From: Rhizoctonia solani
Lineage: Eukaryota > Basidiomycota > Agaricomycetes > Cantharellales > Ceratobasidiaceae
Direction of reading: 5' to 3'
NCBI RefSeq assembly: GCF_016906535.1
Contig: NC_057383.1
Span: forward strand, 682,001-746,000
Length of the DNA: 64,000 bases
Position 1 is the stretch's first letter, and the number at the start of each line of letters is the position of its first letter. Under the pieces are notes generated by a model, which saw nothing but the letters and a program-made list of their open reading frames with translations, made no database searches and was not told where the DNA came from. The position numbers and the translations under genes are program-made. This document shows, one piece after another, positions 6,519-64,000 of the stretch.

Positions 6519-7089
6519 TGTCCTGGACGTCCTTAAGGGGCGTCGAGGCAGCGGGCGCTTGAGGCCGTATAGAACTAAGTATAACCGCGTAAGGCAGTGG
6601 GGTATCTACCTACAACAACAAACTAACTAACTACGGTGTCAAGACGCTACAAGACGTTGACAAGCTACCTAAGTACAGTGAGGGCGACGCTTAAGGCGTG
6701 TATCAAAGTGGTTACCGGCTGTAAGGCCTCGTACAGTGTGTGGAGTGCGACAAGAGGTAATTGACCTGGGTGTTACCATGGTCGGTTGGCCTCCTTATAT
6801 ATTCTATAGTAGTGCTAATTACAAATACATTATATCCAATACCATAACCAATAGGAACCCCGCTCCGCAGTTGGCCTTACTCATGCATACGTGTCACTGA
6901 CGTGTCATAATGATGTCATCAGGTGGAGGTGGCTATGTATGCTGAGGTAAGCGTGGATGGGGACGTGGCTTGGCGCTTAGCGTATGATATAAGCGCCGAG
7001 GTCACGTGATCGAAAATGTTGTCCGTTTGCCTTCGTTTAAATTTGAGAAAATGGGAATAAATTCCCTGGTATCGACTGTGTCTACGACA
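6519..7089 (-). repeat. 3' LTR of the gypsy element
   Basis: 571 bp, TGTCCTGG...CTACGACA on the plus strand, matching 12380-12950 with about eight transitions. The last 56 codons of pol and its stop lie inside this LTR. A TATATAAGG promoter-like motif reads leftward at about 6793-6801. Confidence 0.93.
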
Positions 7090-10000
7090 CTGCCCCCCTC
7101 TAAGGGCCTTGGCAGCGCCGAGGGCCTTCTTTTTCATTTCCTTCTCGAAATTTTTTAGGATTTTTTCGGCGTTCTTGAGGTTTTCCCTTGGTTCCCAAGT
7201 GTTCTCCTCTGATCCATAGCCCTTCCATTTTACCCTAAAGAACCATTTTCCGTCCCTTTCTTCCATGTCCGTGATCCCTTTGACCTTGTATTCTTCCTCT
7301 CCATCCACGGTGACCGGTGGAGGGCGATTTTCAAAGGCGCGTTTGTCATCTCTCTTGACTTTGGACAGGAGTCCTACGTAGAATACATTGTGGATGCGCA
7401 TGGTTGGAGGTAGTTTGAGTTGGTAAGCGCGGTCGGAGATTTTTTCGGTAACCTTGAATGGCCCTAAGCGTTGTTCCGTTAGCTTCGGGCTCAAGGTCTT
7501 CAGGTTTATATTTTTGGCATCAAGCCACGTTTCTTCTCCAACTTTGAATTCTACTGGGGCTCCGTATTCTCCGTCTACCATTCGCTGCTTGGATTGTTGT
7601 AAAGCAGATTCCACTTCCTTCCATTGTGCCTCCATTGTTTCAGCTAGGTCATCTGCTTCTGGTACGTTGGTAGGGACGTTGGATGGTGTCAAATTAGGTT
7701 CCCACCCATATAGGGCTTTGAACGGCGTTTTTCCCGTGCTGCTGTGGACTGCATTGTTGTAGGCAAATTCGGCCATAGGTAACCATTTAGTCCAGTCCCG
7801 TTGGTTAACCCCTGAGTAAGCCCTGAGGAAATGCTCAATGGATGGGTTTACTCGTTCCGTCTGACCATTGCTCTGGGGGTGATAGGCGGAGGAAAAATGA
7901 GGATCAATGCCTAATCGTTTGTACAGGGCCCGCAAGAACTTGTTATTGATAACCCTGCCTCTGTCCGATATAGTCTTTTCCGGCATCCCATGGCGTTTCC
8001 ATACATGTTCCAAGAACAATTCCGCAAGTTCGGGTGCCTTGAGCTTTTTGGAGCATTTAACAAAGATGCCGTACTTGGTGAAGCTGTCCACTATGACTAG
8101 GATGGAGTCATTGCTTCCGTCCTTTGGTAAATCTACAATCATGTCATAGGAAACGTGTTGCCATGGCCTGGATGGGAGTTCAAGTGGCTGTGGGGGGATG
8201 GAGGCGTACTTTGGTTTTTGGATTTGTTGGCAAGTCTCACAGGAATCCACGTGCCAGTATGTATCTGCCCGGATGCCTGGCCAATAGTAGTTGCGTGAAA
8301 CTAATTCTAGAGTACGCTGCCTGCCAGGGTGTCCTGCCAGGGGACTATTGTGGAATATCCGTAGTAGATTTGTCCTTAGAAAGCCCACATCAGGGACCAC
8401 AATACGTCCTTGATAGAACAATAGACCTGCCTCCATTTCGTAATCCTTAAATGCGCGTTTGATAGAAGGTGGGGCTTTGGATTTGTTTTGTAGGAACTGT
8501 AGGATTTCTTCCAAAGACTCGTCCTGATCAAGTGACAATTCAATCTGGCGTTGTAATTCCTTCTCTGGCGTGACTAAGGCTACGTTGGCAAATATGGGTT
8601 CCGGGAGCATGGTTTGGTCAGCGGGTGGGATATCGGCGTGATCAGAACGGCGTGAAAGGGCATCGGGTTTCCCTGACTGCTTTCCAGGGCGGTAAACAAT
8701 TTGGAAGTTGTAGCCTGCTAACAGTAGGTGCCATCTAGCGTGTTGACGGTTAAACGTCCGGGACTCCTTCCAATACTCCAAGTTGCGGTGATCAGTGAAC
8801 ACAGTGACCGGATGAACGGTTCCTTCCAAGAAGATACGCCAATACTCAAAGGAGCGGATGATAGCTAACAGCTCCTTGTCATGGGTGTCATAGTTCTGTT
8901 TGGCACCCTTGAATGACTCAGATAGAAAACCTAGTGGGTGAAGGCGGCCGTCTTCCTGGCGTTGGCTGAGTATGGAGCCTAGTGCTGCCCCTGAGGTGTC
9001 TGTTTCTAGGAAGTAGGGCTTGGACGGATCTGCATGACATAGTACGGGTGCGTTGGTAATAGCGTCCTTTAACCCCTGGAAGGCCTCTTGTTCCTTGATG
9101 TCCCATTTCCAAGGAGTGTCCTTTTTGACTAGGTTGTGTAGCGGCCTAGCCATGTGACTAAAGTTGGCGACGAAGCGACGGAGGAAATTGGCAAATCCCA
9201 GAAATGATTGGACTTCTTTGACCTTAGTGGGTACCGGCCATTCTTGTACCGCCTGGATTTTGAGCTTATCCAGACTAAAACCCTTATTGGAGACAATAAT
9301 CCCTAGGTACTCAACAGAGGTGACGTGAAAGGTGCATTTTGATGCCTTGCAGAATAACTGGTTATCCATTAACCGCTTTAGGACTTCATGAACATGCTTT
9401 GTATGGGATGCGTCATCCTTAGAGTAAATTAGGATGTCATCGAGGTAGATGATGACGCATACATCCAGTAAGTCTTTGAATAGTTCATTCATGAAGTGCT
9501 GGAAAGCGGCAGGGGCATTTGTCAGGCCAAAGGTCATGACCAGGGACTCATAGAGGCCATACTTGGTTCGGAACGCGGTTTTCCATTTGTCACCTTCTTT
9601 AACATGGACATTGTTGTAACCCCATCTTAGATCTAACTTGGTGAAGACCTTGGCACCACGGAGCTGGGCCATGAGGTCATCAGGACGGGGTAATGGGTAT
9701 ACGTTCTTCTTGGTCCGGTTATTGAGGCGGCAGTAGTCTACAACCAAACAACGGGAACCATCCTTTTTGGGTACAAACATGACGGGGGAGCTAATGGATG
9801 ACTTGCTGGGGCGGACTTTTCCAGCTTTGAGTTCGTCCCTGAGCCAGTCCTTGAGTGTGGCGGACTCGGCGTCAGTCATGCTATACAAGGGAGAGTTCAA
9901 TGGGCCTTCTTTGGTAAGTTCTATCCCAATGTCATAGTGCCTGTGAGGTGGGAGCTTATTGAATTCTTCCTCCCCAAACACCTTTGCGTATTGATGGTAT

Positions 10001-10518
10001 TTGGGAGGGACTCCTTCAAGGGGGTTTCGATCAGCTTCCTCTTCTTCAGCGATGGCCACATGTTCTGGTGGTGCATGGGGAAAGGACAGGGTGCGCAAAT
10101 TCCAATCAATCTCTGGGTTGTGGGCGTCTAACCACTTTAATCCTAAGATGGCGGCATGAGACCCTGTGCTACAAATTAGGAAGGTCTTGGTCATTTGTTT
10201 GCCATCAAAGGAGAAGGTGAGTTTAGCCTTCTTCCAGATCTTGCCAGCCTGGGGGCTTGACCCATCAAGCATAGTGACGGTACGGGGTGAAGGGAGATCT
10301 ATGAGTGGGAGGCGGAGTGATTCCGCGGTACGGGGGTGCATAAAGGAGGAGGTAGCGCCTGAATCAATCAGGACTTCTAGGGTTTCCGCTTTTTTCTCTG
10401 GTTTAATTGAAATCGTGAAAAGTGGGGATATTCTATTGTTACTATTTGATATGTTACAGATTTCAACTAAATCAGAGACCTTGGGGTCCTTGCGCGCAGC
10501 AGCAGGTACCCTTAGTCT
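6919..10518 (-). CDS. pol: Gypsy Pol polyprotein (protease, RT, RNase H, integrase, chromodomain)
   Basis: The frame is open from the -1 slip site at 10518 to a stop at 6919-6921, about 1199 residues; the first Met is only at 10341, after the protease active site. The protease motif LIDSGATSSF lies just upstream of that Met. Numbering from the Met: reverse transcriptase with YLDD at 299-302, RNase H beginning near FLETDTSGA (444-452), integrase zinc finger H664, H671, C701, C704, catalytic D733, D793, E829, and chromodomain about 1017-1070 with the aromatic VKWKGY and NTWEP motifs. Pol copies the RNA genome and integrates it; the chromodomain of this family usually directs integration to marked chromatin. 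Expression as a Gag-Pol fusion by -1 frameshifting fits the overlap with gag. The last 56 codons run into the 3' LTR. Confidence 0.95.
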   Translation of the reverse strand, partial: RLRVPAAARKDPKVSDLVEICNISNSNNRISPLFTISIKPEKKAETLEVLIDSGATSSFMHPRTAESLRLPLIDLPSPRTVTMLDGSSPQAGKIWKKAKLTFSFDGKQMTKTFLICSTGSHAAILGLKWLDAHNPEIDWNLRTLSFPHAPPEHVAIAEEEEADRNPLEGVPPKYHQYAKVFGEEEFNKLPPHRHYDIGIELTKEGPLNSPLYSMTDAESATLKDWLRDELKAGKVRPSKSSISSPVMFVPKKDGSRCLVVDYCRLNNRTKKNVYPLPRPDDLMAQLRGAKVFTKLDLRWGYNNVHVKEGDKWKTAFRTKYGLYESLVMTFGLTNAPAAFQHFMNELFKDLLDVCVIIYLDDILIYSKDDASHTKHVHEVLKRLMDNQLFCKASKCTFHVTSVEYLGIIVSNKGFSLDKLKIQAVQEWPVPTKVKEVQSFLGFANFLRRFVANFSHMARPLHNLVKKDTPWKWDIKEQEAFQGLKDAITNAPVLCHADPSKPYFLETDTSGAALGSILSQRQEDGRLHPLGFLSESFKGAKQNYDTHDKELLAIIRSFEYWRIFLEGTVHPVTVFTDHRNLEYWKESRTFNRQHARWHLLLAGYNFQIVYRPGKQSGKPDALSRRSDHADIPPADQTMLPEPIFANVALVTPEKELQRQIELSLDQDESLEEILQFLQNKSKAPPSIKRAFKDYEMEAGLLFYQGRIVVPDVGFLRTNLLRIFHNSPLAGHPGRQRTLELVSRNYYWPGIRADTYWHVDSCETCQQIQKPKYASIPPQPLELPSRPWQHVSYDMIVDLPKDGSNDSILVIVDSFTKYGIFVKCSKKLKAPELAELFLEHVWKRHGMPEKTISDRGRVINNKFLRALYKRLGIDPHFSSAYHPQSNGQTERVNPSIEHFLRAYSGVNQRDWTKWLPMAEFAYNNAVHSSTGKTPFKALYGWEPNLTPSNVPTNVPEADDLAETMEAQWKEVESALQQSKQRMVDGEYGAPVEFKVGEETWLDAKNINLKTLSPKLTEQRLGPFKVTEKISDRAYQLKLPPTMRIHNVFYVGLLSKVKRDDKRAFENRPPPVTVDGEEEYKVKGITDMEERDGKWFFRVKWKGYGSEENTWEPRENLKNAEKILKNFEKEMKKKALGAAKALRGGQCRRHSRYQGIYSHFLKFKRRQTDNIFDHVTSALISYAKRQATSPSTLTSAYIATST
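7092..7103 (-). other. Polypurine tract of the gypsy element
   Basis: Read on the minus strand, AGAGGGGGGCAG lies immediately before the 3' LTR, the expected place for the primer of plus-strand DNA synthesis. Confidence 0.8.
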
Positions 10519-12077
10519 TTTCCCGATTTGGGTCCAGACTCTTTGCCAATTTTGGCAGACTCCTTTTTGACGCCTTCCTCTTTAGGCGTGGCTTTCCAGC
10601 CAGTGCGGCATTCCGCAAATTTGTGGCCCGATTTGCCGCATTTGATGCATAGGCCTTCAGCCCTGCGGCGGTTCCGCTCCTCCTTGGAAACAAAGTTAGG
10701 ATCACTGGAGAGGCGTCCTGGTCTTGTGGCCTGTTGGCCGGTACTTGCCCCCCTGTTGGGGGTGGAGGAGGTTCCAGACTTACTACCCTTAGGCGGGTGG
10801 CTGGCACGCTCCTTGCGGAGGGCGTTATCAATGACCAGGGCCGCGTTCTGCAGCTCCAGGAGGGTGGTTGGGCGCTGTTTGCGGGTGGCAATGAGACGGC
10901 TGACCTCCCAGTGGAGGCCACGTGCAAATTGCCCACGGAGGGCGGCATTGTTCCAGTCCAGGTCCATGGCAATGGTCCTGAACTTAGTGATATACTCAGC
11001 GCAGGTGCTTGTCTGAGTAAGGTTTGTGATCTGCCGCTCCGCGGCCCTTGTGGCGTCCGGGTTCCCAAATGCCGCCAGGAATTCCCTCCTGAAGTCCTCA
11101 ACCGTTTGGATGATGGCCCTGTGGGACCCTAGTTGGTCGAGGTGGGGGTGTGCCCATGCTCCTGCTGTATCCTTCATGTTCATTAGAAGGAACAAAAGTA
11201 CCTCCTGATCCGTAGGGAACATGCGTTGGTTAAGGCGGACCCATGCCATCATTCTTGTGAGCCATTGCCGTGACTCATTCCCAATTTTCCCCGTGTAAGC
11301 GTCGGGGTGATCCACTTTGACGGGGGTTTGGTATGTGGCTACTGAAGCCGCTGGTGGAGGGACAACGGGGGAGCGGAGCCTGATAGGCAAAGGTGGAGCG
11401 GGAGTTTGGACTCTTGGGGGGGCCCGGACAGGAGTTGGTTGGGCAAAGGTAATGGGGGGCTTGGTAGGGTTGGCCCAGGCGATGAGGGGCGCACTAGGCG
11501 CTGGAAGAGGGTCGGCTTTGGGTAGGGGCCTGGGCGTGGCTTTGATTGCCGGTGGTTTCCGGTCTTCTGGTGTGTGGGGTTGGGGCCCATTGCTAGCCTT
11601 GATGCGAGTGAGGGTTTGGTTGACTGCTCCCATCCAGTCTTGGGCTTCCTTGTTGACTTCCTTGATTTCCTCGAGTTCTCGTTTGAGCCGGAGGACTTGG
11701 TTTTGCAATCCCAGGAGGAGGGAGATTGCACGGCTGAGGGAGACCTCCCCATAGACCTTGGGTTTGAGGCTTGTTGGCTCATCGGTGGTTGCCAAAATAG
11801 TGGGTCCCAACTCTCCTTGATTGAGAGGGGACAGGGGACGAGCAGTACTCCGGGAACGGGTTGCCATTTCATGGGGATATGAACGGCCTTGGTGGGAAGT
11901 GGTGCGCTGGGAGGCGCGGGAGGAAGCGCAAGAGGGAGTGCGGGAGGTAATGATGGGCAAAGTGGGGGGAATGGGGGCTATGTAGCCAAAGGTGCCTATA
12001 TCAGGACTTATGGGGCGCTTTATTGTTCTGGCGCTAAGAGTCTGCGTCAACCGCCTAGCGTTGGACAGTCCCTTCAA
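10512..12077 (-). CDS. gag: Gypsy Gag polyprotein
   Basis: 521 residues. The middle part has the retrotransposon Gag-like core (around GNPDATRAAERQITNLTQT and LRGQFARGLHWEVSRLIA). A single zinc knuckle CIKCGKSGHKFAEC (C-x2-C-x4-H-x4-C) sits at residues 477-490. A proline-rich segment and a predicted helical stretch (about 95-125) precede the core. Gag packages the element RNA into virus-like particles in the cytoplasm. The stop lies just past a GGGAAAA slippery site that shifts ribosomes into pol. The start is the first ATG of the frame; about 300 bases of leader separate it from the 5' LTR. Confidence 0.93.
   Translation of the reverse strand: MKGLSNARRLTQTLSARTIKRPISPDIGTFGYIAPIPPTLPIITSRTPSCASSRASQRTTSHQGRSYPHEMATRSRSTARPLSPLNQGELGPTILATTDEPTSLKPKVYGEVSLSRAISLLLGLQNQVLRLKRELEEIKEVNKEAQDWMGAVNQTLTRIKASNGPQPHTPEDRKPPAIKATPRPLPKADPLPAPSAPLIAWANPTKPPITFAQPTPVRAPPRVQTPAPPLPIRLRSPVVPPPAASVATYQTPVKVDHPDAYTGKIGNESRQWLTRMMAWVRLNQRMFPTDQEVLLFLLMNMKDTAGAWAHPHLDQLGSHRAIIQTVEDFRREFLAAFGNPDATRAAERQITNLTQTSTCAEYITKFRTIAMDLDWNNAALRGQFARGLHWEVSRLIATRKQRPTTLLELQNAALVIDNALRKERASHPPKGSKSGTSSTPNRGASTGQQATRPGRLSSDPNFVSKEERNRRRAEGLCIKCGKSGHKFAECRTGWKATPKEEGVKKESAKIGKESGPKSGKD
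10518..10524 (-). promoter_or_regulatory. Programmed -1 ribosomal frameshift site (gag-pol)
   Basis: On the minus strand the heptamer GGGAAAA stands in the gag frame as G GGA AAA, exactly the X XXY YYZ form, followed by GAC and the gag stop TAA. Slipping one base back opens the pol frame (AGA CTA AGG...), which stays open through protease. This is seen directly; actual slippage is inferred from known retroelement biology. Confidence 0.85.
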
Positions 12078-46042: not shown

Positions 46043-49000
46043 ATGAGTAAAACGGTGGTGTATGCAGATCAGCTAAGGGTAGGAGATGTGGACAGCGAGC
46101 GCGTGAGTGGAAAGGGTCGAAATGAAGGGTCGCTGCTTACCAGCGTGCTAATCACATAGCCACAGGACGGTACTGAGGTCACATCTGCGTCGGCCATGAG
46201 TCAAGAAGAAAAACCAGAGAGTGCTGCAAGCGGGCAGAATCACAGCGAAAGCGTTCAGGTCAAAAGCTTAGGTATATATTTGGATAGCATTTAGCAATTT
46301 GCACCTGCACTCACGTAGTGTGCAAAAGGTCCGGAAGAGCTATATAAACTGGGGAAATCCCATCTTAACGAATATGATCGCTTCGGAAGAATAGACGACA
46401 TTGACAAGGCAATCAAGTATCATGTTTGTGCAGTAGATCTGACGACGCACGGCGATCCAGAGTTGGCAGAACGACTGACTGAGCTTGGGATTTGCTATGA
46501 CCGGCGATATCGGAGGCTCGGAAAAGTGGAAGACATGGAGGGGTCGCTGGAATGTGATGATCGGGCGGTTGAACTGACGGCTGAGGGCGATCCAGAGCTG
46601 GCACGGAGGCTGGCGAACCTGGGGATATCTTACAGTGAGCGGTACCGGCGGCTGGGTGAGGCTACTGACCTCGACAGGTCGCTTGAGCATAGGTCTCGCG
46701 CACTCGCACTCACTCCCGACGGCCATCCTGACTTGCCAGACCGGCATGCGTCTCTAGGCGTGTCATACAGCGATCGATACCGACGGCTGGGTGAGGCTGC
46801 TGACCTCGACAGGTCGCTTGAGCACTTGTCTCGGGCACTCGCACTCACTCCCGACGGCCATCCTGACTTGCCAGGCCGGCATGCCTCTCTAGGCGTGTCA
46901 TACAGCGATCGATACCGACGGCTGGGTGAGGCTGCTGACCTCGACAGGTCGCTTGAGCACGACTCTCGGGCACTCGCACTCACTCCCGACGGCCATCCTG
47001 ACTTGCCAGGCCGGCATGCCTCTCTAGGCGTGTCATACACCGATCGATACCGACGGCTGGGTGAGGCTGCTGACCTCGACAGGTCGCTTGAGCACTTGTC
47101 TCGGGCACTCGCACTCACTCCCGACGGCCATCCTGACTTGCCACGCCGGCATGCTTCTCTAGGCGCGTCATACACCGATCGATACCGACGGCTGGGTGAG
47201 GCTGCTGACCTCGACAGGTCGCTTGAGCACGACTCTCGGGCACTCGCACTCACTCCCGACGGCCATCCTGACTTGCCAGGCCGGCATGCCTCTCTAGGCG
47301 TGTCATACAGCGATCGATACCGACGGCTGGGTGAGGCTACTGACCTCGACAGGTCGCTTGAGCATAGGTCTCGGGCACTCGCACTCACTCCCGACGGCCA
47401 TCCTGACTTGCCACGCCGGCATGCCTCTCTAGGCGTGTCATACAGCGATCGATACCGACGGCTCGGTGAGGCTGCTGACCTCGACAGGTCGCTTGAGCAC
47501 TTCTCTCGGGCACTCGCACTCACTCCCGACGGCCATCCTGACTTGCCACGCCGGCATGCTTCTCTAGGCGCGTCATACACCGATCGATACCGACGGCTGG
47601 GTGAGGCTGCTGACCTCGACAGGTCGCTTGAGCATAGGTCTCGGGCACTCGCACTCACTCCCGACGGCCATCCTGACTTGCCACGCCGGCATGCCTCTCT
47701 AGGCGTGTCATACAGCGATCGATACCGACGGCTGGGTGAGGCTGCTGACCTCGACAGGTCGCTTGAGCACTTGTCTCGGGCACTCGCACTCACTCCCGAC
47801 GGCCATCCTGACTTGCCAGACCGGCATGCGTCTCTAGGCGTGTCATACAGCGATCGATACCGACGGCTGGGTGAGGCTGCTGACCTCGACAGGTCGCTTG
47901 AGCACTTGTCTCGGGCACTCGCACTCACTCCCGACGGCCATCCTGACTTGCCAGACCGGCATGCGTCTCTAGGCGTGTCATACAGCGATCGATACCGACG
48001 GCTGGGTGAGGCTGCTGACCTCGACAGGTCGCTTGAGCACTTCTCTCGGGCACTCGCACTCACTCCCGACGGCCATCCTGACTTGCCAGACCGGCATGCG
48101 TCTCTAGGCGTGTCATACAGCGATCGATACCGACGGCTCGGTGAGGCTGCTGACCTCGACAGGTCGCTTGAGCACTTGTCTCGGGCACTCGCACTCACAC
48201 CGCTTGGTCATCCGGGCTCTCCTCTGCGCCACTTCAGTTACGCTGTCTCATGCCACGATCAGTATTTGCACACAGCCGATTCCTACTTTCTCCAAGTCTC
48301 CCTCGACTCCTTCCGAAAGTCCTCTAGCTTGCTCGCCGGCCCGCCCCGTGATGCCTTTGACATGGCTATGCGCTGGGCGAACCTTGCGGCCAAGCACAGC
48401 TCCCTCCAGCCCATTCAGGCTTTCCATGCCGTGGTCGACCTTCTGCCTCACTACATATCTCTTGGTTCCACCACCACTCAGCGATACCATGATCTGCTGA
48501 GCGCACAAAACATCGCTGTCCGCGCTGCATTCATTGCCATTCAGTCCTCCGACCACACCCTGGCCCTTGAGTGGCTCGAGCATACCCGATGTGTCGTATG
48601 GAACCAATCCCTCATGCTTCGATCTCCCCTCCAAGACCTCGCATCTGCCCATCCAGACCTTGCCAGTCAGCTCCGGTCTGTCTCTCACCAGCTCCACCAT
48701 GCCACTTCCTCGTCGCTGTTGCTCGATGCCAACCTCTCCACCACCGACACATCTGAGCATCGGTACCGTCTGGCAAGGCAGTACACCGATCTGATAGCAC
48801 AAGCACGCAGTCTGGCTGGGTTTGAGAGCCCACTCGGGCCAATGGATGCCGCCGGCCTGGTTCGCGCTGCTCGACATGGACCCATCGTTGTCATCAACTG
48901 CTATGAACACTGCTGCGATGCGCTCATCGTCACACCAGGCAGCAGCCATATAGCCCACCTGGCTCTGCCCAACTTCTCCCAGGAAGCCGCTCGACATGCG

Positions 49001-50002
49001 CTTTCGAACATGCAAGCAGCCCTGAGGCGTAAAAACATCCGTGACCGTGGGGTCAAACGCATAGGCGAGCACCCGCCGAACGAAGACATCGGTCGTGTAC
49101 TTGCCGCTCTGTGGAACAACGTCGTCAAACCCGTGCTAGACTACATGGGATACACCGTGAGTAGAATCTGTGCTGTCTGGATGAGGTACTCTAACTGTGT
49201 TGCTGCATTCAAGAACGCCGTACCAGTAGGTGGTATGCCGCATATAACATGGTGCCCGACTGGTGCACTATCCTTCCTCCCGCTACATGCAGCTGGCGAC
49301 TACGACCTGACTCAATCAAAGGTGTTCGACTATGCCGTATCATCCTACACTCCCACTCTTACCGCCCTTCTTGGGTCTGGCTCAAGCCTCACAAACTGTC
49401 GACCTCGCATTCTAGGCGTTGGCCAAGCCGCTACGCCCGGTCTCACACCATTGCCTGGCACTACAACAGAGCTTGGGTATCTGCAAGCACATAGCAAACA
49501 GCGAACGGACTACTGGCAGCTGACCGACGAGCGGGCAACGAGAAAGGCGGTGCTTGATGCCATGGACGAATACGACTGGGTGCACCTCGCCTGCCACGCC
49601 AGCCAGGACCTCAGAGACTCGACGAAGAGCAGGTTCTACCTGCACGATGGCACGCTTGACCTCTCAGCGATCAACCAGCGCACATTCAGAAGCAAGGGCC
49701 TTGCGTATCTGTCGGCATGTCAGACTGCAACAGGCGACGAGAAGCTGCCGGACGAAGCGATCCACCTGGCGTCGGGGATGCTGATGGCAGGCTACCGGAG
49801 TGTGATCGCAAGCCTGTGGTCGGTTATGGACGAAGACGCACCGTTCGTTGCGGACAAGGTGTATGGACGACTACTGGAGGATGGGAAGGTGGGAAACGGA
49901 GAGGCGGGGAGAGCGCTGCATGATGCTGTAGCGGGTCTGCGTGAGAAGGTGGGGGAGAAGGAGTTTGGTCGGTGGGTGCCATATATACACATTGGGTCTT
50001 AG
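46043..50002 (+). CDS. TPR-CHAT protein (caspase-HetF-like peptidase with TPR array), copy 1
   Basis: Four exons (46043-46102, 46166-46271, 46329-49156, 49214-50002) give 1260 residues. After a hydrophilic N-terminus come three degenerate and twelve near-identical 45-residue TPR-like repeats (about residues 80-620), then a helical region, then a CHAT domain from about residue 840. The CHAT catalytic pair is visible: His in WVHLACHA and Cys in LSACQTATG; ITWCPTGALSFLPLHAAG and MLMAGYRSVIASLWSV are also typical. CHAT proteins are caspase-like cysteine peptidases; TPR-CHAT proteins in bacteria act in immunity as regulated proteases. The last intron (57 nt) also lies at the same place in the second copy at 62755. 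The upstream exons are less certain; start at 46043 has a good ACCATGA context. Function in the fungus is unknown. Confidence 0.88.
46629..48204. repeat. Twelve tandem 135-bp coding repeats
   Basis: The word GACCTCGACAGGTCGCTTGA recurs every 135 bp from 46667 to 48152, twelve times. Units are almost identical in DNA; differences gather at five codons per unit. The twelfth unit breaks down at its end. The array is in frame inside the TPR-CHAT gene and is bound to be unstable in copy number. Confidence 0.96.
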
Positions 50003-62754: not shown

Positions 62755-64000
62755 TTATGAGCCTATATGAATGTGGGGCACCCAGCGTCCAAATTCCACC
62801 TCTCCAATCTGGTCTCGCAATTGGGCGACAGAGCTATGAAGTGCTTTGCCTGCTTCTCCGTTTCCAAGCTTCCCCTCTTTCAGCAGATTGGCGTATACTT
62901 TCTCTGCTACCAATGGTGCGTCTATGTCTTTCACGGACCACATGGTCCCAATGACACTAGTATATCCAGCCATAAGCATCCCTGATGCAAGATGAATTGC
63001 CTCATCTGGCAGCCTCGCATCACCAGTCGCAGTCTGACATGCGGAGAGGAATGCCAGTCCTTTGTTCTTGAATGATCGGAGATTGATGGAGGCCAGGTTC
63101 AGTATGCCATCATGGAGGAGAAATCCACTCTCGCTTGGATCTTCAGCACTTTGGTAAGCGTGGCAAGCGAGGTGAACCCAGTCGTGTTTGTCCATCGCAT
63201 CTAGCACACCTTTGATAGTTGCTTCATCGCCTGCAGATTCTGAGAATCCAACGTAGCCTATCCTTTTGGTATGCTCCTTTATATATGCAAGTTCCTTGGC
63301 TGTGCCAGGTAATTCATCCAACCCATGTATTGGCGCAGCCCCCTGCCCTACCCCAAGTATTTGGGACCCTGGTGCAAGGGATGTAGGAGAGCATGAGATA
63401 AGAGCGGCGAGGGTTGGAGTGTAAGATGAAATTGTATACTTATATACTCTTGAGTTCGGTTGATCGTAATCCCCAGCTGCATGAAGTGGGAGGAACGACA
63501 CTATGCCCGTTGAGCACCAGGTTATATGCGGTAGGTCACCTGGTGGTACGATATTCTGAGATTACGTTAGTACTAAGGAACTATCACCAATATGACACGT
63601 ACAGTATGTCCAAGAAAGTCCAGGATGGGTTTAACAACACTGTACCAGAGAAGTTTCAATACAGCCCCAAAGTTATCCTTTGAATCTTGCTCCTGTCTCG
63701 GCCTAGGTCGTAGCTTGATATCGCGCTGTCTCAATCCCTGATGAGCAAGTGATTTATGTATCTCTTCCCGTGCGTAACAAGCTTTCTCGTATGAAAACAT
63801 AGGAAGTGGGACAAAATCGATCTGTTCTTTCCCGGGCTGAGCAATAAGTACATCGCATCTGGCTTTGTGGATGTTGATTACAGCGATGGGGCCATTTCGG
63901 GCAGCATGAACAAGCTTGTTTATCTTCATTGGCTGAAGGAAGTCTTCAAACCCATGGAGCCGACGTATTTGGTCCAATAGGTCATTGTACTCATGAGCTA
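62755..64000 (-). CDS. CHAT-domain protein, copy 2 (5' end beyond the window)
   Basis: Two exons are visible: 63555-62755 and from 63603 to the right edge, about 400 residues. The CHAT domain is complete with ITWCSTGIVSFLPLHAAG, catalytic His in WVHLACHAY and Cys in LSACQTATGDARLPDEAIHLASG, and it ends GRWVPHIHIGS, almost as in copy 1. Upstream lies the same helical linker (HAARNGPIAVINI, WYSVVKPILDFLGHT). The intron is placed as in copy 1. Whether it carries a TPR array is unknown because that part lies outside. It is a caspase-like peptidase by family. Confidence 0.88.

Follow-up and report, generated by a model that had tools for sequence, protein, structure and literature searches.

How might a fungus diversify a recognition surface within a protein that carries its own candidate protease? 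The question is raised by a TPR-CHAT gene of the basidiomycete Rhizoctonia solani, which lies at 46043-50002 (+) of a 64,000-nucleotide window (NC_057383.1, positions 682,001 to 746,000; C14:682001-746000 in a genome of 40.7 Mb and 16 contigs), its ATG at 46043 and its stop codon ending at 50002. We lean towards reading the gene, from its sequence, as an intracellular sensor-protease that has no nucleotide-binding oligomerization domain (NOD) as a switch and that evolves like the repeats of high internal conservation (HIC) in fungal NOD-like receptors (NLRs). A two-intron model (exons 46043-46102, 46166-46271 and 46329-50002) reproduces the public R. solani protein P0001 letter for letter over its 1279 aa; P0001 is the gene's best protein match (100%) and the same gene.

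The most conspicuous feature of the gene is its repeat array. Tandem Repeats Finder (TRF) reports a single array at 46631-48198, with a period of 135, 11.6 copies, 95% matches and a score of 2821, which rules out chance or low complexity as its source. Aligned as 45-residue units, the array comprises twelve copies at 46631-48250, the last of them diverged in its second half, so that the twelve near-identical 135-bp repeats described in the initial annotation are borne out by both approaches. Among the inner units (2-11), 11/135 nucleotides are variable and mean identity is 96.3% in nucleotides and 94.3% in amino acids; over the 450 aa of these ten units, this lies above the >85% over >=100 aa that has been used to define HIC repeats (PMC4986451). 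The amino-acid changes fall on unit codons 2 (S/T), 12 (A/T), 21 (R/L/D/F), 37 (D/G/R) and 44 (V/A), exactly the five positions that had been singled out beforehand, and silent variation on three, codons 8, 20 and 40; the variation is neither mostly synonymous nor scattered. The variable residues appear to be shuffled between units, because a CAT-AGG pair (a silent change in codon 20 joined to Arg at 21) is found with Asp 37 in unit 1 and with Arg 37 in units 6 and 8, and because the four-gamete rule applied to units 1-11 gives at least four recombination intervals (Rm >= 4), unless the same changes recurred.

Comparison with related proteins extends this picture from units to alleles. Six other database proteins (P0002-P0006 and P0010) share the linker and CHAT domain of the gene at 83-96% identity, and five of these orthologues also match its N-terminus, P0006 being a fragment without one. 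Repeat number is 12 in P0001, 8 in P0002, about 7-8 in each of P0003, P0004 and P0005 (models that are fragmented within the array), 3 in P0010, a record marked as partial, and 2 or more in P0006. This is the repeat-number polymorphism (12, 8, about 7-8, 3) characteristic of HIC domains, here among proteins 83-96% alike in linker and CHAT rather than within one population. The order of units differs too: position 21 reads R-L-D-L-D-R-F-R-L-L-F along units 1-11 of P0001 and K-R-R-R-D-F-D along units 1-7 of P0002, and these two unbroken models, of 12 and 8 units, differ in their residues at positions 2, 21, 37 and 41. Constant repeat number and order across isolates, which would have spoken against the reshuffling proposed at the outset, is thus not what the protein models display, and that proposal agrees with the recombination intervals within the array. 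Moreover, alleles seem to have crossed over within the array, because the closest relatives of P0001 flip from one side of it to the other: on the N-terminal side P0001 is 96.2% identical to P0003, 85.3% to P0010 and 82.1% to both P0002 and P0004, whereas on the C-terminal side identity is 88.3% to P0003, 94.8% to P0002, 95.0% to P0004 and 96.1% to P0006. The contrast between P0003 and P0002 gives a Fisher p of about 8e-5 on each side of the array.

The gene belongs to a large family. A profile search of the genome gave 62 matches to PF12770, and the CHAT half used as a query gave 73, which merge by eye into about 60 loci, fragments included. These are clustered: 17/60 lie on C14, a contig that makes up 5% of the genome (p 6e-9, tandem copies not being independent), and a further 10/60 on C4; many of those on C14 fall within its first 40%, and many on C4 sit close to its left end. 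We fetched and analysed 24 arrays, leaving out the duplicates L011 and L013 and the second copies of refetched genes (L001-L005, L007, L008), and called an array conserved at an inner-unit identity of >= 0.65. By this measure 11/22 arrays are conserved (L025 and L027 having too few inner units to be classed), five of them at identity >= 0.85 (L009, L014, L016, L019 and L021). Some arrays undergo concerted evolution and others decay, because the closest relative of a unit lies within the same array for 101/130 units of the 11 conserved arrays (only 8/19 in L015) and for 22/127 units of the 13 other arrays. The reading frame changes inside the array in 8/24 (L014, L021, L022, L023, L024, L027, L031 and L033), through decay, introns or assembly errors; three of these (L014, L021 and L024) are among the 11 conserved arrays, where decay or assembly error would account for it. 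The genome also holds an inverted segmental duplication between C11 (about 1.61-1.81 Mb) and C13 (about 0.28-0.48 Mb), with CHAT and NACHT matches of equal score in mirrored order; a 6,977-bp TPR-CHAT stretch is identical in its two copies (L012/L013), and L010/L011 are 99.6% identical.

A second TPR-CHAT gene about 13 kb away (L029), whose CHAT end occupies 62755-63501 (-) and which runs past the end of the window, is a natural control for the labile array, as judged from the aligned sequences. Its own array is degenerate (mean unit identity 0.39), and over residues 1-899 the gene aligns collinearly with its relative P0122, at 93.9% identity and with a single gap, the CHAT part reaching 96.6%.

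Which of the variable positions carry a signature of selection? Unit statistics rest on full-length units without indel or stop; those on selection and silent rates exclude the two terminal units of every array, and residue tallies at positions 21 and 37 use all units. At position 21, amino-acid change exceeds the silent rate of the array in 11/11 conserved arrays (1.03 to 12.9), with a pooled ratio of 2.45 (bootstrap over arrays 1.69-3.94). Amino-acid substitution rates across these arrays run in the order 21, 2, 6, 37, 3, 34, 44, 41, and when positions are ranked by how many residues they show, position 21 leads, alone or in a tie, in nine of the 11 arrays and comes second in two. Unit pairs share their residue at position 21 in 20% of cases versus 82% elsewhere. 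A mutation hotspot at codon 21 is unsupported: pairs with the same residue there show a silent difference of 0.155 per site versus 0.203 overall, which is not raised, on few silent sites. In 126/130 own-genome units the residue is one of K, D, H, F, N, Y, S, R and L. We also observed that the same codon often recurs at this position in different own-genome arrays, as if drawn from a shared pool. Among the database matches listed (the best 120 of 3037, here without P0001 and proteins of fewer than six full units), 114 proteins reach six or more full units, and 55 of them have conserved arrays, in which the most variable positions are 21, 37, 2, 6, 44, 41, 3 and 12; all five positions named in the initial annotation belong to this top eight. 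Taken together, position 21 shows the pattern of diversifying selection at the sequence level. Since the arrays are related, unit pairs are not independent and the database proteins come almost wholly from one species group, the figures are strong but not exact.

The position of these residues on the fold can be approximated by alignment. A profile of the units (A1) matches both kinesin light chains and designed TPRs (7obi, E 3.6e-10); we prefer the designed-TPR alignment because its invariant A, L and P match, and the kinesin-light-chain alignment shifts position 21 along helix B by about two further turns. In the preferred alignment, unit positions 37, 40, 44, 2 and 3 fall on TPR positions 2, 5, 9, 12 and 13, and unit positions 30 and 31 to TPR positions 33 and 34; these seven TPR positions are the most variable ones and line the concave face (PMC1261162). 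Among the eight unit positions with the highest amino-acid substitution rates, four map to the classical groove (p 0.013; p 0.0037 by a rank test).

The C-terminal half of the protein is a probable protease, judging from its domain match and residues. PF12770 matches at 114.7 bits against a cut-off of 24, and two residues, His in the motif LACHAS and Cys in SACQTA, align in a weak match (E 0.027) with a His and a Cys of the Csx29 (Craspase) TPR-CHAT protein (PDB 7zoq). The His-Cys pair, which had been called apparently intact, is indeed widely kept: both residues are present in 118/120 proteins listed (the best 120 of 3037 matches, own gene included; P0118 has Gly instead of Cys and P0033 a gap at His) and in 26/26 own-genome loci fetched, a set that counts the gene itself and two duplicate pairs. 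Loss of the catalytic residues among orthologues, raised as a possible objection, is ruled out by this retention. In Csx29, as here, the domain order is TPR then CHAT. Membership in that family is ruled out, with NCBIfam NF041237 matching the CHAT part at E 1.3e-7 and 30.8 bits against a cut-off of 300; the family is bacterial and, by its name, CRISPR-associated, unlike this fungal gene.

How does the gene compare with systems already described? The HIC TPRs of fungal NLRs show repeat-number polymorphism together with groove positions under selection (Dyrka et al. 2014, PMC4986451), and HIC TPR, ANK and WD40 domains, including those of the HNWD genes (PMC4986451, PMC12222747), resemble the present array in their near-identical repeats, repeat-number polymorphism and concerted evolution and, as it appears, in their few diversifying positions and concave-groove TPR sites. 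The likeness to fungal NLR/HET proteins suggested initially therefore stands for high internal conservation and reshuffling but not for class: a Pfam scan of the protein lists only CHAT, TPR-type families and a globin match, with no NACHT, NB-ARC or HET, so that this is not an NLR or HET protein by definition. Unlike fungal NLRs, the gene has no NACHT or NB-ARC switch, and its putative effector is the C-terminal CHAT; elsewhere in the same genome there are 85 NACHT matches (83 over cut-off) and 4 NB-ARC matches. Also unlike the HIC systems compared, its leading position (21, TPR 24) lies in helix B and is not a listed groove site, and the host is a basidiomycete with about 60 loci in one genome. 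The matches to PF01152 (globin) and TIGR04348 both fall inside the repeats and were taken as spurious; PF20308 (TPR-S) reaches 31.6 bits in total against a cut-off of 27.6, with no single stretch passing.

Closer in domain content is a TPR-bearing CHAT protease of Podospora anserina that activates gasdermin and has been proposed as a death-triggering sensor-protease (PMC12881547). It shares TPR and caspase-like CHAT with the gene studied here but is paired with a gasdermin, a partner that we did not identify here, and the section devoted to it mentions no HIC repeats. In R. solani AG8, CHAT has been reported as the most abundant peptidase domain, possibly related to programmed cell death (Hane et al. 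2014, PMC4014442), in passages on CHAT that offer no analysis of repeat arrays, turnover or selection. Fungal TPR repeat turnover with groove selection (PMC4986451) and CHAT abundance in R. solani (PMC4014442) are thus already in print. In the open-licence PMC literature (titles, abstract openings and some passages) we found no treatment of HIC arrays in TPR-CHAT proteins, nor did we meet there a single dominant position or allele mosaicism in a TPR-CHAT protein lacking a NOD; TPR-S and CHAT do not occur in the eLife 2020 conflict-systems paper.

What might such a protein do? The gene looks like a fast-evolving sensor of self/non-self or of invaders, for which we infer recognition, proteolysis and cell death as the successive activities. 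As the sequence shows, exchange or conversion keeps the TPR-type units homogeneous while a few positions per unit stay diverse. The variable residues would serve as the surface on which a variable protein or peptide ligand is bound; candidate sources are a non-self individual with which hyphae have fused, a mycovirus, and other invaders or competitors. Ligand binding would relieve the CHAT domain or bring CHAT domains together, and activated CHAT would cleave a substrate, plausibly a cell-death executor; a family of about 60 loci would provide a repertoire that recombination can re-tune. This suggests that the repeat-diversification mode of fungal NLRs may also act without a NOD domain, in a direct fusion of sensor and protease. 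Somatic incompatibility in basidiomycetes has been called poorly understood (PMC8229728), and anastomosing cells of R. solani frequently die in the C2 fusion reaction (PMC4070963); a large family that shuffles its repeats, diversifies particular residues and carries a caspase-like domain in the same protein offers a concrete, testable candidate, with one residue per repeat, position 21, singled out as the first to test. A bolder version, to which we give little credence, is that the TPR-CHAT family is the receptor repertoire of C2 incompatibility and is modular, each unit contributing one main specificity residue (21) aided by 37 and 2. If so, recombination of units would write new recognition strings. 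The repeat-variable residues of TALE or PPR proteins provide a parallel for one specificity residue per unit.

Several results weigh against the sensor-protease interpretation. Whole-array pN/pS is below 1, at 0.74 in this gene and 0.56 pooled. Per-codon binomial tests gave no significant position among the top 14 of 45 in each set, and only position 21 clears 1: position 2 is borderline (ratio 1.61, bootstrap 0.94-2.69) and the bootstrap of position 37 spans 1 (0.5-1.96). Even at codon 21 the silent-rate check draws on few silent sites, and recurrent mutation can also yield four-gamete patterns. Among the 55 conserved listed arrays position 21 heads the ranking in only 22, is one of the three most variable positions in 38, and drops to ranks 13, 17, 22 and 26 in four. 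Its prominence may be confined to Rhizoctonia and related fungi, because a conserved 45-residue array joined to CHAT in Mycena rebaudengoi (P0123) has N at 21 in 6/7 units, its variation falling at other sites. Position 21 corresponds, moreover, to TPR position 24 in helix B, outside the classical groove set, and TPR position 24 is usually packed between helices. Lastly, no gasdermin-type or other recognised executor was found among 20 other window open reading frames (ORFs) scanned unspliced against Pfam (18/33 of those >= 150 aa and two shorter), a scan that intron-split genes escape.

One rival explanation is neutral turnover of a tandem repeat, in which unequal exchange homogenises the units and the variable codons are leftover polymorphisms at unconstrained surface sites, with no selected recognition surface. 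The whole-array ratios (0.56-0.74) and the fact that three of the eight variable codons of the inner units are silent are in keeping with it, and V/A at position 44 could be a CpG change; we nevertheless regard it as unlikely, because neutrality predicts at most equality and codon 21 changes its amino acid faster than the silent rate in every conserved array, with silent change there not raised, and the same positions lead in other arrays. The polymorphism might instead be technical, with repeat numbers and frames wrong in draft assemblies or annotations. The frame changes in 8/24 arrays, the fragmented models of P0003-P0005 and the 7 mismatches and 11 gap openings between the duplicated locus copies L010/L011 all point that way, but such an artefact would have to explain two unbroken models with different unit numbers and residues, as well as a sister gene that is collinear between assemblies at similar divergence, and we consider it very unlikely.

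Other rivals concern function rather than turnover. A structural or scaffolding TPR protein, with CHAT serving an ordinary process such as separase-like or developmental proteolysis and repeat number merely tuning length, would be consistent with many TPR proteins being scaffolds and with the stated likeness of CHAT to separase (PMC12881547); about 60 loci, 17/60 of them on one chromosome, array turnover and residue-specific diversification are unexpected of a housekeeping scaffold, which makes this improbable in our judgement. We hold it more doubtful still, and indeed highly improbable, that the protein is a secreted or pathogenicity-related factor aimed at the plant and diversifying under host pressure: R. 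solani is a crop pathogen whose predicted effectors have raised dN/dS (PMC4014442), but no N-terminal signal peptide is evident on inspection by eye, and CHAT-TPR relatives also occur among Mycena and Fusarium proteins.

The features on which the sensor-protease interpretation draws are collected in the table. The annotated protein very probably reads through a third, in-frame intron, because the interval is bounded by GT...AG and the orthologue models P0003 and P0004, in which it is spliced, do not have its 19 residues; the 57-nt interval is kept in the public proteins P0001, P0002, P0006 and P0010. With intron 3 spliced the protein would be 1260 aa long.

Table. Features of the TPR-CHAT gene, in window coordinates.
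Feature	Position	Strand	Remarks
Exon 1, start ATG	46043..46102	+	model identical to P0001
Intron 1	46103-46165	+	GT...AG
Exon 2	46166..46271	+	between two GT...AG introns
Intron 2	46272-46328	+	GT...AG
Exon 3: two degenerate TPR-like units, 12-unit array, linker, start of CHAT match	46329..49156	+	
Two degenerate N-terminal units	46370..46630	+	profile matches P0001 70-110, 112-156; counterparts in P0002-P0005, P0010
Array of twelve 135-bp / 45-residue units	46631..48250	+	variable unit codons 21, 37, 2, 44, 12
Linker, array to CHAT match	48251..49105	+	conserved among orthologues
CHAT domain match PF12770, split by intron 3	49106..49999	+	114.7 bits
Probable intron 3, 57 nt, in frame	49157..49213	+	GT...AG; 19 residues missing from P0003, P0004
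Exon 4: remaining CHAT, stop	49214..50002	+	
Catalytic-type His codon (LACHAS)	49595..49597	+	aligned to His of 7zoq; 119/120 proteins listed
Catalytic-type Cys codon (SACQTA)	49718..49720	+	aligned to Cys of 7zoq; 119/120 proteins listed

PADLOC defence models gave no match, and the gasdermin profile PF04598 gave 0 matches here and likewise 0 in its controls, which makes its silence uninformative. The other window ORFs scanned gave matches to a CAF1B/HIR1 propeller, to a fungal transcription-factor domain, to phosphoesterase and transporter-like families and to a Ty3-type retroelement, and RING matches that stay below threshold. The ORFs of the Ty3-type retroelement lie at 6919-12077 (-), with reverse transcriptase, RNase H, integrase and chromodomain in one and gag in another.

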